From Trueperaceae bacterium (GTDB lineage Bacteria; Deinococcota; Deinococci; Deinococcales; Trueperaceae): a stretch of 36,117 nucleotides of DNA. The position numbers and the translations under genes are program-made. Shown here piece by piece: positions 15,991-21,271 of this stretch. The notes beneath the pieces are model-generated. The model was not told the DNA's origin. It did no database searches and saw only the letters and a list, made by a program, of their open reading frames with translations. The DNA is taken from assembly GCA_007695125.1 (NCBI GenBank), contig REEJ01000207.1:1-36117 (forward strand), in the 5' to 3' direction. The number at the start of each line of letters is the position of its first letter. The first letter of the stretch is position 1.

Positions 15991-16676
15991 GGCAGTCCGC
16001 GTGCGAACGCGTCCGGGGGGCGACACGCCACGACCGCGTCCGCCCACACGGCGATGGCGACCTCGCCGACCTGCCCGATCAGGCGCCCGGGACAGATCAG
16101 CACGCTCGGCTCGCTGCGATCGTCGAACACGGCGGCGCTGCCCGCGACCTCGCCTTCTCGGTACGGTCGAGCGGGGGCAGCGACGCGCAACGGCGTCGGC
16201 GTGCCCTCGCCCTGCAGGACGATCCAGCGCTGGCCGTCGTGGCGTATGTGGGCGACGTGGCCGGCGAGCTCGACCCGGAACGTCGGCGCCTCGCCCGGCT
16301 CGAACAACGCCTCCCACGACGTCGGCATGAGGAAGCCGATGTCGATCTCGATGCATGCCCGCGGCGACTCGGCGCCGTGCGGCACCACCACGGCCTCGCG
16401 CGCGTGGCCGGCGAGCAGCAGCCCAGCCACGGCATCGGCCCCCTCGCGGGCGCTCCAGCACCCCACCCGCACGCGGACGTACTGCAGACCGTCGGTCATG
16501 GCGAACTCGTTGAACGCCGGGAAGCCGGCGTCGCGCAGCGTCGCCGCGGTGTTCTGCGCTTCGCGCAGATCGCGCAGCGCCACCGTCTGCACCGCCCAGC
16601 CGCCGTTCTGTCCCGCCGCGACACCGACGAGCCACATGGCGAGAAGCCAGGCCGCGACGCGCAGCCGGGCCGTCAC
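15987..16676 (-). CDS. Exported SPOR-domain protein
   Basis: 229 residues. The signal peptide (VAAWLLAMWLVGVAAG, residues 7-22) is followed directly by a SPOR-like repeat (about 25-95): WAVQTVALRDLREAQNTAA and YVRVRVGCWSAREGADAV, the usual pattern of a domain that binds denuded peptidoglycan glycan strands. The remaining 130 residues contain beta-strands and no domain I recognise. Two Cys (in VGCWS and VACRPP) and others could form disulfides. Start (GTG overlapping the hisH stop) and stop (overlapping the yvcK GTG) both use GTGA. It lies between hisH and yvcK, suggesting an envelope job co-expressed with YvcK. Confidence 0.78.
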   Translation of the reverse strand: MTARLRVAAWLLAMWLVGVAAGQNGGWAVQTVALRDLREAQNTAATLRDAGFPAFNEFAMTDGLQYVRVRVGCWSAREGADAVAGLLLAGHAREAVVVPHGAESPRACIEIDIGFLMPTSWEALFEPGEAPTFRVELAGHVAHIRHDGQRWIVLQGEGTPTPLRVAAPARPYREGEVAGSAAVFDDRSEPSVLICPGRLIGQVGEVAIAVWADAVVACRPPDAFARGLP

Positions 16677-17341
16677 GGCGTCGCCCGCGCTGGCGTCGCC
16701 CGCGCTGGCGTCGCCCCGGCCGCGCTCCGGACCAAGGCGCCGAAGTTCTCGAGCACGCGCAGTCCGACCGCCTGGCTCTTCTCCGGATGGAACTGGGTCG
16801 CGTGCAGCCCACCGAGCGAGACCGCGCTCAGGAAGCGTGTCGTGCCGTAGCGCGTCTCGGCACCCATCGGAACGCTGCCCGCAGGGAACGTGACGTAGTA
16901 GGAGTTGGCGAAGTAGACGAACGCGCCGGCCGCCACACCGTCGAGGAGCGGCGAGGCGCCCAACGGCCAGATCTGGTTCCAGCCCATCTGCGGCACGCTG
17001 ACGCCCTCGGCCGGGAAGCGCCGCACCTCGGCGTCGAGGACGCTCAGGCCAGCCACGCCCGGGGCCTCTTCGGAGCCGCGCGTGAGCAGCTGGAGCCCGA
17101 TGCAGATCCCGAGGAACGGCCTGCCGTGCGCGATGTGCTCGGCGACGACGGGGGCGAAGCCGGAACGCTCGAAGGAGCGCATCACCTGGCCGAAGTGTCC
17201 CTGGCCAGGGAGCACCAACGCGTCGGACTCACGCGCCACGCCGGGATCGGCGCTGCGCAGCACGGGCACGCCGGCGGCGAGCAGCGCCTTCTCGACGCTG
17301 TGCAGGTTACCCGCTCCGTAATCGATCAGGACGACTCGCAC
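16673..17341 (-). CDS. hisH: Imidazole glycerol phosphate synthase, glutaminase subunit
   Basis: 222 residues. With HisF it converts PRFAR and glutamine to IGP and AICAR in histidine synthesis. The class I amidotransferase triad is visible: C80 in LGICIGLQLL, and H185 and E187 in FHPEKSQ. The start is taken at GTG 17341 (giving RVVLIDYGAGNLHS, the canonical N-terminus), 5 bp after the hisB stop. The ribosome-binding site is poor (AGGGGA 13 nt upstream), which fits coupled translation. A normal HisH ends at about residue 205; this one adds a short repetitive ATPAR tail. hisF and hisA are not in the window. Confidence 0.95.
   Translation of the reverse strand: MRVVLIDYGAGNLHSVEKALLAAGVPVLRSADPGVARESDALVLPGQGHFGQVMRSFERSGFAPVVAEHIAHGRPFLGICIGLQLLTRGSEEAPGVAGLSVLDAEVRRFPAEGVSVPQMGWNQIWPLGASPLLDGVAAGAFVYFANSYYVTFPAGSVPMGAETRYGTTRFLSAVSLGGLHATQFHPEKSQAVGLRVLENFGALVRSAAGATPARATPARATP
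16677..16716 (-). repeat. 15-bp tandem repeat in the end of hisH
   Basis: GGCGTCGCCCGCGCT occurs twice in full and a third time in part (plus-strand reading), encoding the A-R-A-T-P repeats that end HisH. Since the unit is a multiple of three, changes in copy number would lengthen or shorten the tail without a frameshift. Confidence 0.8.
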
Positions 17342-17346
17342 GGTGC

Positions 17347-17931
17347 TCAGAGCGTCCCCTTGGTGCTCGGCAGCGTGTCGTGCGTGGTCCGGGTCGCCCG
17401 TTGGAGCGCCCGGGCCAACGCCTTGATCGCCGCCTCGCAGACGTGGTGCGCCTCGCCCATCGCGAGGATCCTGACGTGCAGCGTCGCGTGGGAGTGGTTC
17501 GTGAAGCCACGCAGCCACTCGCGCAGGTGGTACGCGGAGAAACCGTTCACGCTGCCCGGCACGTCCTCGGGCTCGAAGGCGAGGAACGCTCGGCCCGACA
17601 GGTCGAGGACGACCTGGACCAGCGTCTCGTCCATCGGGACGATCACGTCGGCGTAGCGCTCGATCCCGTGCGCGTCGCCCAGTGCGGTGCGGAGCGCTTG
17701 GCCCAGGGTGATGCCGACGTCTTCGGCGAGGTGGTGGACGTCGACGTGCAGGTCGCCGGTGGCGCGCACCTCGAGCCCCAGGCGGCCGTGGCGGATCAGC
17801 TGATCGAGCAGGTGGTCGATGAAGCCATGGCCCGTCGCCGCAGACCCCCCGGAGCCGTCGAGGTCGAGCTCGACGAGCACGTCGGTCTCATTGGTGATGC
17901 GGTGCACGCTGGCTCTGCGGTGCTCAGGCAT
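17347..17931 (-). CDS. hisB: Imidazoleglycerol-phosphate dehydratase
   Basis: 194 residues, the length of monofunctional HisB. It dehydrates IGP to imidazole acetol phosphate. The two metal-binding signatures of the duplicated fold are present: DVHHLAEDVGI in the first half and EAHHVCEAAIKALA in the second, with the central GFIDHLLDQL. No phosphatase domain is fused to it. The ATG lies 8 bp inside the end of hisC. Products pass from HisH/HisF to HisB to HisC, so three consecutive late steps of the pathway are encoded together. Confidence 0.96.
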   Translation of the reverse strand: MPEHRRASVHRITNETDVLVELDLDGSGGSAATGHGFIDHLLDQLIRHGRLGLEVRATGDLHVDVHHLAEDVGITLGQALRTALGDAHGIERYADVIVPMDETLVQVVLDLSGRAFLAFEPEDVPGSVNGFSAYHLREWLRGFTNHSHATLHVRILAMGEAHHVCEAAIKALARALQRATRTTHDTLPSTKGTL

Positions 17932-19051
17932 GGCTCTCCTCGGTTCTCTCAGGCGCCGCGGCCGGCGCGCCAGCCGCGCCCGGCTGCGCCGCGAGCGCGG
18001 TCAGCGCCGTGAGCGCGGCGACGAGCGCGTCGTTCTCGTCAGGCGTCCCGATGCTCACGCGCAGGCAGCCGGCCAGGCCGGGCAGGTGGTCTTGGCGCCG
18101 CACCACGATCCCGCGCGCGAGCAGCGCGCCGTGGAGGGCGGCCGCGTCGCCGACGCGCACGAGCAAGAAGTTCGTCACCGAGGGGAACACCTCGATGCCG
18201 GGCAGGTCCCGCAGGGCGGCGCCGACGCGCTCGCGTTCGGCGACGATCAGGTCGACACGCGAGCGCACGTACGCCGGGTCCTCGAGCACGGTCTCGACCA
18301 GCGCCGCCTGCAGCGCGGACACGGTGAACGGCAGCACGGCCTTGCGCAGGTGGACTGCCAGGTCGGGAGCGGCGAGCGCGTATCCCAGCCGGACCCCGCC
18401 CATTGCGAAGGCCTTGGAGAACGTCCGCAGCGACACGGTGTTGGGCACGTCGCGAACGACGCTGGAGAAGTCGCTGGCGGCGAAGGGGCCGTAGGCCTCG
18501 TCGATCACCGTCAGCCACCCGTTCGCTCCGGCGCGCGCCAGCGTCCAGACGTCCTCCGCGCTCACCGCGTTCCCGGTGGGCGCCATCGGCGCCGCCAGGA
18601 AGTGCACGCCGTCGCCCTGGTCGAGTTCGCTCAGGAGTGCCTCGAGCGGGAGCGCGAAGCCCGCTGCCAGCGGCACCTCGCGCAGTTCGGCGTTCAGGAG
18701 CCGGGCCTGCAACGCGTAGAGGGAGAACGACGGGGCGACGCTCAGGACGCGTCGACCGAGGCCGGCGGCGATCACGATCGCTTGGATGAGGACGTTGGAA
18801 CCGTTCGTCACCACGACGCCCTCGACCGGCCAGCGCTCGAGCTCGGCGATCCGCTCGGCGACGCCGTCGGCGTGCATGGCCGGGTAGCGGTGCAGCTCGG
18901 CGCGAGCGACGCGCTCCAAGGCGCGCGAGCGCAGGGGCTCCGGGAGGTCCCATGGGCTCTCGTTCTGGTCGAGTTTCACGGCCGCGTCGAGCGCCTTGAA
19001 GCGGTACGCGGGGAGCGCCTCGACATCGGGTCGGATCGCCATGCGCGCCAT
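17924..19051 (-). CDS. hisC: Histidinol-phosphate aminotransferase, atypical active site
   Basis: 375 residues, a fold type I PLP enzyme that turns imidazole acetol phosphate and glutamate into histidinol phosphate. The PLP lysine is K213 in RTFSKAFAMGGVRLGY, with the phosphate-binding Arg following; VIDEAYGPF supplies the PLP Asp and Tyr; LDQNESPW is the substrate-side N-terminal motif. The usual NNPTG reads MAPTG: Ala157 stands where the conserved PLP-contacting Asn (N157 in E. coli HisC) is expected. The start at 19051 has GAGGG 9 nt upstream; a second ATG at 19042 is weaker. The last residues are an Ala/Pro-rich tail. The overlap with hisB and the his context support HisC over another aminotransferase. 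Confidence 0.88.
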   Translation of the reverse strand: MARMAIRPDVEALPAYRFKALDAAVKLDQNESPWDLPEPLRSRALERVARAELHRYPAMHADGVAERIAELERWPVEGVVVTNGSNVLIQAIVIAAGLGRRVLSVAPSFSLYALQARLLNAELREVPLAAGFALPLEALLSELDQGDGVHFLAAPMAPTGNAVSAEDVWTLARAGANGWLTVIDEAYGPFAASDFSSVVRDVPNTVSLRTFSKAFAMGGVRLGYALAAPDLAVHLRKAVLPFTVSALQAALVETVLEDPAYVRSRVDLIVAERERVGAALRDLPGIEVFPSVTNFLLVRVGDAAALHGALLARGIVVRRQDHLPGLAGCLRVSIGTPDENDALVAALTALTALAAQPGAAGAPAAAPERTEESHA

Positions 19052-19138: not shown

Positions 19139-21271
19139 TCACTGGCTGCGTCGGCGCGCCTCGGCCAGGAACGGCTCGGCGGTCTGCGCGAGCTCGGGCG
19201 CGAGGTCGACCGCCCGTTCGAAGCTCGCGACGGCGGCCACGAAGCGAGCGACGCCGTACTCGGCCAGGCCCAGGTTGAAGTGGGCCTGGGCGTTGTCGGG
19301 GTTGCGCGCGACGGCGGCCTGCAGCGCCTCGAGCGCCAGGTCGAGGCGACCGAGCTGGAGGTGCGCGAAACCCAGGTTGGAGAGCAGGATGTCGTTGTCG
19401 CCGAGCTGCGCGCGAGCGTCGCCATAGGCACCGATGGCGCCGCGCGAGTCGCCTGCGCGCTGCAGCGCGTAGCCCTGGTAGAAGGCCAGCAGGCCGGCGT
19501 CGGTGACCTCGCGCGCGTTGGCGAAGCTCGTCGCGGCCGTGGTCCACTCGCCCGTCTCGAGCGCCGACAGCCCCTGCTCGAACGCCACGGCGGCGTCGCC
19601 CTCGAGAGACAGGGCTTCGTCGTCACCGATGATGCGCGCTTGCTGCTCGAGCACGCTGAGGGCGCGGTTGGCGAGGCCGAGACCGGGCTCGTCGACCACG
19701 ACGTCCTCGAGCACCGAGCGAGCCTCCGACACGCGGCCGACCCGGCCGAGAGCGATGCCGTAGTAGGTGCGGACGATGGGGTCGCGTTCACCGGCCTCCA
19801 CCAGCGGCGTGAGCGTCGCCAACGCCTGGCGCGCACGACCCGAGGCGAGCTGGAGTTCCACCAGGCGCAGCACGAGGGCCTCGTCGTCGCCGATCGCCTC
19901 CGCCAACAGGGCCTCGGCCTCGTCGAGCCTGCCCGCGCGACCGAGCACGGTCGCCAAGGCCTCGGTGGCGGTGACGTTCGCTGGATCGACGGCGATCACC
20001 TCGCGCAGGATGCTCTCGGCGCGTTCGAGGTCGCCGGCGGCGACCTGGAGGTCGGCCTCGGCGATCGCCAACGTCGTGCTGTCGGGGTAGCGCTCCCGAC
20101 CCTCTTGGACGAAGGCGAGCGCCTGGGGGCCGACGGCATCCGGCAACCCAGCGGCCAGCGCGTAGGTGGCAGGGGCGCGGCCGATGGGGTCGGCGACGGC
20201 CTGCTGGAGCAGCGCCAACGCGCCGCGAGGATCGCCGGAGCCGAGCACGTCGTCGAGCAGCGCCCGTTGGATGGTGAGCGAGTCGGGGACGCGTTCCGCC
20301 GCGCGCCGCAGCGCTTGCAGGCGGCGCTGCGGGTCGGTCTGCAGCGTCGCGTACGCCAAGTGGGCGTCGACGAGCCGGGGAGCGGCGGCGAGCGAGCGCT
20401 CGAGGAGCGCTGCGCGCTCGGCGGGATCGGTGGTGAGACCAGCCAACCCGGCCAAGGCCTGGGCGTGGTTCGGGTTGATCGCCAGGGCGGCACGGAAGGC
20501 GTCTTCCGCAGCGGCTGCGTCGCCGAGAGCGGCGCGCACCACGCCCTCGACCACACGCACCTCGGCCACCTCGGGAGCCAGCTCCGAGGCCTCGCCGACG
20601 AGTCGGAGCGCGAACGCCTCGTCGCCCTCGAGCAGCGCCACGCGGGCGGTCTCGGCGCGCAGCCAGGCGCTGTCGGGGTCGAGCTCGAGTGCCGCGCGCA
20701 TGTCGTCCAGGCGCACCCCGGGAAGCCGCGCGCTGGCCACCGACAGTGGACCGAGCGACGGCAGCGACGGGGCCGTCGTGAGCGCGCCGCGCACCTGCCC
20801 CAGCTCGGCCGGCGGCAGGGTGACGTCGGCGCGGCGCAGCGCCGTCTCGGTCAAGGAGCGCCATAACGCGCTCAGGTCGGTCACGTTGCCGGTCAGCGTC
20901 TCGATGCGATCGTCGTCGCCCACCACCACCACCAGCTCGACCTCGAGCCGGGTCTGGCCGACGATGCGGCCGAGGACGATGGCGTCGGCCCGGAACAGCC
21001 GCTGGGCGGCGGCGATCGGGTCGACGCCGGCCTGGTTGGCTCGTTGCACGACGACCAGCGCGTCGCCCACCGGCGGGGCGTAGAGGCCGTCGACCTGGTT
21101 GATCGCGCGCTGGATGGCGCTGGCGCTGGCCAGGCCGAGCGAGTCGACCGAGCGGCTGGCATCGAACGGGAACACGACCACGCGGGTCGGCGCACCCTGT
21201 GCGAGCGCGCTCGCCGAGACCATGAAGAGCGTGAGGGCCGCGACGAGGGCGGCGCTGAGGTGGCGTAGCAT
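19139..21271 (-). CDS. Exported tetratricopeptide-repeat protein
   Basis: 710 residues. A signal peptide (AALVAALTLFMVSASALA, residues 8-25) precedes a domain of about 150 residues (TRVVVFPFDASRSVDSLG, IVLGRIVGQTRLEVELVV) that resembles TolB-N/CsgG-like nucleus folds found in envelope proteins. From about residue 190 to the end are TPR-type helical repeats; the clearest are near ALGDAAAAEDAFRAALAINPNHAQAL and LGRLDLALEALQAAV. It should act outside the cytoplasm as a protein-binding scaffold. Its partner is unknown. It takes the place where Firmicutes have era after cdd. It has its own probable leaderless promoter, 7 bp before the ATG. Confidence 0.85.
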   Translation of the reverse strand: MLRHLSAALVAALTLFMVSASALAQGAPTRVVVFPFDASRSVDSLGLASASAIQRAINQVDGLYAPPVGDALVVVQRANQAGVDPIAAAQRLFRADAIVLGRIVGQTRLEVELVVVVGDDDRIETLTGNVTDLSALWRSLTETALRRADVTLPPAELGQVRGALTTAPSLPSLGPLSVASARLPGVRLDDMRAALELDPDSAWLRAETARVALLEGDEAFALRLVGEASELAPEVAEVRVVEGVVRAALGDAAAAEDAFRAALAINPNHAQALAGLAGLTTDPAERAALLERSLAAAPRLVDAHLAYATLQTDPQRRLQALRRAAERVPDSLTIQRALLDDVLGSGDPRGALALLQQAVADPIGRAPATYALAAGLPDAVGPQALAFVQEGRERYPDSTTLAIAEADLQVAAGDLERAESILREVIAVDPANVTATEALATVLGRAGRLDEAEALLAEAIGDDEALVLRLVELQLASGRARQALATLTPLVEAGERDPIVRTYYGIALGRVGRVSEARSVLEDVVVDEPGLGLANRALSVLEQQARIIGDDEALSLEGDAAVAFEQGLSALETGEWTTAATSFANAREVTDAGLLAFYQGYALQRAGDSRGAIGAYGDARAQLGDNDILLSNLGFAHLQLGRLDLALEALQAAVARNPDNAQAHFNLGLAEYGVARFVAAVASFERAVDLAPELAQTAEPFLAEARRRSQ

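Follow-up and report, generated by a model that had tools for sequence, protein, structure and literature searches.

A clade-wide variant of a probable Deinococcota histidinol-phosphate aminotransferase, with alanine in place of the PLP-contacting asparagine

The hisC locus and its altered motif

The window (the whole 36,117-nucleotide stretch of contig REEJ01000207.1, from a Trueperaceae bacterium, that was analysed) carries on its reverse strand a hisC gene with hisB directly after it and hisH next (Table 1), an order that recurs across the phylum Deinococcota, to which Trueperaceae belongs. hisB and hisC overlap by 8 bases at the end of hisC, and hisH proper starts inside its open reading frame, the match to the TIGR01855 profile beginning at residue 62. 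A gene for a long TPR-repeat protein (19139-21271, reverse strand) lies directly upstream of hisC, as it does at many loci within the window's family.

Table 1. Coordinates of the genes, motifs and residues considered in the window
Feature	Position	Strand	Remarks
hisC, histidinol-phosphate aminotransferase, fold type I PLP enzyme	17924..19051	-	Open reading frame, 375 aa
APMAPTG motif, HisC residues 154-160	18572..18592	-	Ala157 where Asn157 is expected
HisC Met156, codon ATG	18584-18586	-	
HisC Ala157, codon GCG	18581-18583	-	
DEAYGPF, HisC residues 184-190	18482..18502	-	Asp184 and Tyr187 retained
Lys213, Schiff-base lysine (E. coli Lys214)	18413..18415	-	Present in 103/103 distinct Deinococcota rows
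Arg318-Arg319-Gln320-Asp321	18089..18100	-	Arg318 is the conserved arginine (E. coli Arg322)
hisB, imidazoleglycerol-phosphate dehydratase	17347..17931	-	NCBIfam HisB models, best 2.4e-63
Open reading frame containing hisH	16673..17518	-	TIGR01855, 8.6e-53, 179.1 bits vs cut-off 105.4

In HisC of E. coli, the PLP 3'-oxygen is presumably bonded by Asn157 and Tyr187 and the pyridine nitrogen paired with Asp184, and we take Asn157 to correspond to Asn194 of aspartate aminotransferase. An earlier note on this DNA had reported MAPTG in place of the NNPTG motif, with alanine standing for Asn157 and with the PLP lysine (K213), Asp and Tyr remaining. These observations were confirmed: the motif reads P-M-A-P-T-G at 18572-18592, alignment with E. 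coli HisC (1FG3 chain, residues 46-353) places Ala157 on Asn157 and Met156 on Asn156 without a gap, and Asp184, Tyr187, Lys213 and the arginines are retained. The accompanying description of the motif as nearly invariant holds, as regards the asparagine, for HisC outside the Ala-type clade, where position 157 is Asn in 67, Ser in 3 and Thr in 1 of 71 distinct rows, a set selected by similarity to the query.

The window enzyme has the same fold as E. coli HisC (1FG3, 1GEW, 1GEX, 1GEY) and shares with it Asp184, Tyr187, the Schiff-base lysine and the equivalents of Arg222, Arg322 and Arg335. It differs by the replacement of Asn157 with Ala, Asn156 with Met, and Tyr110 and Tyr243 with Phe, as well as in the residues after the conserved arginine (E. 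coli Arg322), where Arg-Gln-Asp stands against Asp-Gln-Asn in E. coli. Among solved structures, the closest in sequence (7.4e-54) is 3EUC, 'histidinol-phosphate aminotransferase 2' of Ralstonia eutropha JMP134, which shares the DEAYxPF pattern (as DEAYQPF) but, unlike the window, keeps Asn-Asn-Pro-Thr-Gly. DEAYGPF itself, flagged earlier as a deviation from DEAY-x-EF, proved to be ordinary variation, as DEAYxPF also occurs in L064, L068 and L118. The site of Pro189 is variable within the Ala group (Gln, Glu, Pro, Ala, His or Val) and, judged from these alignments, DEAYGPF needs no explanation.

Family assignment and genomic context

The best family in the profile library for the window protein is TIGR01141 (1.6e-80), with 270.6 bits against a curated cut-off of 276.55; the next-best family, TIGR01140 CobD, gives 190.6 bits, and two named relatives likewise fall below the TIGR01141 cut-off (271.2 and 273.5 bits). 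The structure model (pLDDT 92.6) had as its input alignment A1, which held 66 of 80 possible rows (L070, L086, L099, L107 and L111 were dropped for stops inside the given range, and nine others for brevity). It matches 1FG3 with Z 45.0 and 1.4 Å over 343 residues, the first two matches lying at 1.4-1.5 Å over 342-343 residues. The top eight structural matches are all HisC entries (Z 42.5-45.1), and the ninth is the Mycobacterium aromatic-type aminotransferase ArAT (Z 41.5).

Scans of the window's genome (a metagenome-assembled genome, MAG, about 90% complete) with PF00155 and TIGR01141 yielded no second HisC of comparable score, the runner-up to hisC reaching 132.4 bits with TIGR01141. Because an assembly of such completeness might lack a second HisC, the scan of relatives provides the stronger test. 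It covered 111 Deinococcota genomes and gave a HisC match in 107, the four exceptions being G002, G049, G064 and G084 (the last 92% complete), while HisD was matched in 107 of the 111 and lay above its cut-off in 106. A single HisC match at 1e-20 was obtained in 103 of the 107 genomes, including the one-contig genomes G013, G022, G038, G056 and G091; in three of the others a second HisC match exists at 31-32% identity, and in one the gene is in two pieces. Furthermore, hisB lies directly downstream of hisC in 99 of the 103 Deinococcota loci with enough flank (all except L051, L133, L137 and L144) and hisH within 2 kb of hisC in 96 of them, a count from which L157 (too little flank) and L161 (another HisC) were left out.

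Distribution of the substitution in Deinococcota

The named Trueperaceae assemblies L052-L055 represent near relatives of the window's genome, and two of them, L053 (97% identical in HisC) and L052 (87%), carry the same APMAPTG. Ala157 is therefore not a base error, and the error at the Ala157 and Met156 codons envisaged by the earlier note is contradicted by these assemblies. Among 12 other PF00155 matches in the window's genome, the motif was readable in 7 (and not readable in 5), and all 7 retain Asn ahead of Pro (SNPTG, NNPTG, HNPTG, NNPTA); thus, the loss of Asn is a property of HisC and not of a genome-wide bias. The window's hisC is under purifying selection, with Ka/Ks values of 0.16, 0.22 and 0.33 against relatives of 97%, 87% and 66% identity, respectively.

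Across the phylum, residue 157 is Ala in 100 and Thr in 5 of the 105 readable orthologues, and Asn in none. Two of the 107 matched genomes stand outside this count, G065 offering a fragment that lacks the motif and G036 a distantly related HisC of the Asn type; also uncounted as orthologues were the second distant matches L207 (G023) and L208 (G007), both with Asn, and the fragment L210, and in L209, the second match of G018, the motif was not readable. All Thr157 rows (L149, L150, L151, L155 and L187) come from one genus (g23, family f3) and read PHTPTG or PHTPSG. Families f2-f5 (f4 being, at a guess, Thermaceae) have His at the neighbouring position 156, where the window's family has Ala, Met, Leu or Thr. 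Of the 107 distinct Ala-group rows, 14 carry Ala rather than Gly at position 160, and the motif of L135, read directly, is ANPAAPTG. All 103 distinct Deinococcota rows have Pro158, Asp184, Tyr187, Ser212, Lys213, Arg221, Arg318 and Arg331. No named Thermus or Deinococcus HisC was found in the plasmid collection (23 records, best identity 35.6%).

The genome G036, which belongs to the window's family, has as its only HisC match the Asn-type L161, at 35% identity. L161 (66-4547) stands first in a compact cluster, hisC-hisA-hisB-hisF-hisIE, and the genome yielded no HisC of the Ala type; this arrangement may reflect operon replacement or a contaminant contig.

Origin and occurrence outside the phylum

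A quick tree was computed with the motif columns 153-160 excluded, from 45 of the 107 Ala-group and 48 of the 71 other distinct rows (thinned at 72% identity), to which E. coli HisC and L161 were added; one Anaeromyxobacter row, L056, was included. Without the motif columns, the Ala-type HisC rows form one group (SH-aLRT 100), inside which L056 sits among the rows of family f4, at a fork drawn open. The same tree requires at least four changes between Asn and not-Asn at position 157.

A Deinococcota-type HisC (PHAPTG) occurs in Anaeromyxobacter and its classmates (L056-L059, L231-L243): 13 of 77 genomes of the class carry the Ala-type enzyme, three further matches are of a distant Asn-type and 61 genomes gave no match at 1e-40. 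Neither hisB nor hisH lies near L056-L059, and an inositol-monophosphatase-family gene is located upstream in L056. On the simplest reading, Anaeromyxobacter would have acquired its HisC by transfer from within the Ala clade. Four Anaeromyxobacter genomes (G111-G114) also hold an Asn-type HisC (PDNPTG) above the TIGR01141 cut-off, so that either enzyme could serve histidine there; in the single Anaeromyxobacter case examined (L212), the Asn-type gene lies between accA and cmk.

Serine is found at position 157 in all six matches from a Neomarinimicrobiota class (L272-L277; 30 genomes, 24 of them without a match at 1e-40), as well as in L060 and in L061 and L074, the latter two being likewise of Neomarinimicrobiota and lying near hisB and hisH. 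The Neomarinimicrobiota enzymes resemble that of the window in being without Asn157, but they have Ser instead, keep Asn156, form a separate branch and lack the signature residues of the Ala clade. In the genus Prevotella, 25 matches from 30 genomes comprise 22 with Asn, 2 with Asp and 1 with Thr at this position; a Prevotella enzyme with Thr157, L088, has hisH adjacent and scores 328.2 bits against 178.6 for the next TIGR01141 match.

In G111-G114, in G115 (the genome of L060) and in G116 and G117 (Neomarinimicrobiota, the genomes of L061 and L074), a HisC-like enzyme of the Asn type is also present and outscores the Asn-less copy on TIGR01141; the latter therefore need not be the histidine enzyme in these seven genomes. 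Hence, the Ser157 enzymes and the Ala157 enzymes of Anaeromyxobacter are weaker support for the dispensability of Asn than is apparent. It is only in Deinococcota and in Prevotella L088 that the Asn-less enzyme is the sole good HisC candidate and, since an Asn-type copy coexists elsewhere, the case for dispensability rests mainly on Deinococcota.

Probable function and alternative explanations

The substitution with its clade-wide conservation, the his context, the purifying selection and the intact remainder of the catalytic set, as read from sequence, are best explained by an ordinary functional HisC of the Deinococcota (Trueperaceae) type, in whose ancestor a small residue took the place of Asn157; we regard this explanation as highly probable, the activity of the enzyme being a prediction from genomics. 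The exchange (to Ala, and to Thr in one branch) probably predates the divergence of the sampled Deinococcota families, and the contact made by Asn157 is probably dispensable in HisC. The expectation in the earlier note that loss of the asparagine would cripple the enzyme found no support, given that the substitution is phylum-wide, the hisC-hisB-hisH order is kept and selection is purifying.

On the other side of the balance stand the TIGR01141 score below the cut-off and the 4 of 111 genomes without a HisC match, together with two points from the literature. PMC4703992 lists Asn157, in a structure-based alignment, as conserved across the subfamily along with Pro158, Asp184, Tyr187, the lysine and two arginines, and PMC12429042, which deals with fold type IV enzymes, describes one or two hydrogen bonds as typical for the PLP 3'-oxygen, with impaired catalysis when they are broken. 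Among open-licence papers, neither a report of a HisC without Asn157 nor an assay of a HisC of the Deinococcota clade was found. The earlier note had asked whether relatives share the motif in a HisC proven to be normal: the substitution is indeed shared across the phylum, and none of the enzymes bearing it was found to be experimentally proven.

As an ordinary HisC, the enzyme would catalyse transamination between histidinol phosphate and 2-oxoglutarate/glutamate by the usual ping-pong mechanism. Lys213 would form the Schiff base, Asp184 would contact the pyridine nitrogen, Phe109 would stack against the ring, and Arg318/Arg331 would bind the substrate. Tyr187, the second donor to the 3'-oxygen and one kept in all Deinococcota rows, would hold this oxygen alone, perhaps with the help of a water filling the space of the Asn side chain or of another residue. 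The cost would be a shifted internal-aldimine pKa and pH profile, not a loss of activity. Asn194 mutants of aspartate aminotransferase, in the 1993 work of Yano and colleagues on Asn194 and Tyr225, reportedly stayed active and showed a raised aldimine pKa.

Some structural accommodation of the missing side chain is plausible, and to this extent the suggestion of an altered or compensated enzyme in the earlier note survives, shorn of its crippled and paralogous variants. Another residue of the Ala clade may stand in for Asn157 by forming a hydrogen bond to the PLP 3'-oxygen or to the substrate phosphate, with Arg319-Gln320-Asp321 beside Arg318, or Trp74, as candidates; such compensation, which we entertain tentatively, would refine the best explanation and not exclude it. 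Trp74 is found in 104, Gly148 in 99, Arg319 in 103, Gln320 in 102 and Asp321 in 105 of the 107 distinct Ala-group rows, these residues are not the usual ones outside the group, and all of them are kept in the Anaeromyxobacter-type rows (17 of 17, three being duplicates). However, the signature residues come from one ancestral branch and their joint presence is without statistical weight, they are not shared by the Ser157 enzymes of Neomarinimicrobiota, and the His156 common in the clade is itself replaced in the window's family. Covariation was accordingly dropped as a proof of compensation, the Ala clade having one origin and the Ser clade sharing no signature. Compensation by His156 or Asn154 is ruled out for the window's HisC, which has Met156 and Ala154.

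It is very improbable that the gene is a functionally distinct paralogue, such as an aminotransferase for aromatic or other amino acids, whose place in the his operon is incidental. The score just below the TIGR01141 cut-off would suit such an enzyme, as would Phe109 and Phe242, which match aromatic-type residues of Mycobacterium ArAT in PMC4703992 (its pocket residues Val86, Phe110, Leu112 and Phe246 corresponding, by our own reading of the alignment, to Asn86, Phe109, Leu111 and Phe242 of the window). Nevertheless, Phe is common at both positions in other HisC (45 of 71 and 27 of 71 rows), and at position 86 the window enzyme has Asn, like the HisC of PMC4703992, where the ArAT has Val. The gene is, moreover, usually the only HisC match in a genome while HisD is kept, and it retains the conserved hisC-hisB-hisH order, so that the paralogue proposed in the earlier note is not supported. 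A degrading or dead gene, a sequencing error or an assembly artefact, although suggested by a substitution at a residue usually held important, is practically untenable, being contradicted by Ka/Ks values of 0.16-0.33 and at odds with a motif that recurs in other assemblies and phylum-wide and with a full-length frame in which the remaining catalytic residues are present.

Implications

The HisC of the window represents a known enzyme in a variant form that extends through its clade, and damage to the gene or a paralogous origin is most probably not the cause. It is conceivable, though we put it forward with reserve, that the whole phylum, in an enzyme of an essential biosynthetic step, lost the contact between Asn and O3' once, early in its history, that the rim of the site was rewired (Trp74, Arg319-Gln320-Asp321), resetting the cofactor pKa and substrate binding, and that the trait was then transferred to Anaeromyxobacter. 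If true, the rewired HisC would be nature's equivalent of the Asn194 mutants constructed in aspartate aminotransferase. The scores below the TIGR01141 cut-off imply that automatic annotation may miss the HisC family in this lineage. Furthermore, a natural series of replacements is available, with Ala and Thr in Deinococcota, Ser in Neomarinimicrobiota and L060, and Thr and Asp in single Prevotella. In this family, Asn157 (Asn194 of aspartate aminotransferase) is regarded as an invariable element of the PLP site, and its absence invites the verdict 'inactive'. An old lineage that seemingly does without this asparagine in a biosynthetic enzyme makes the necessity of the contact testable and cautions against such verdicts.
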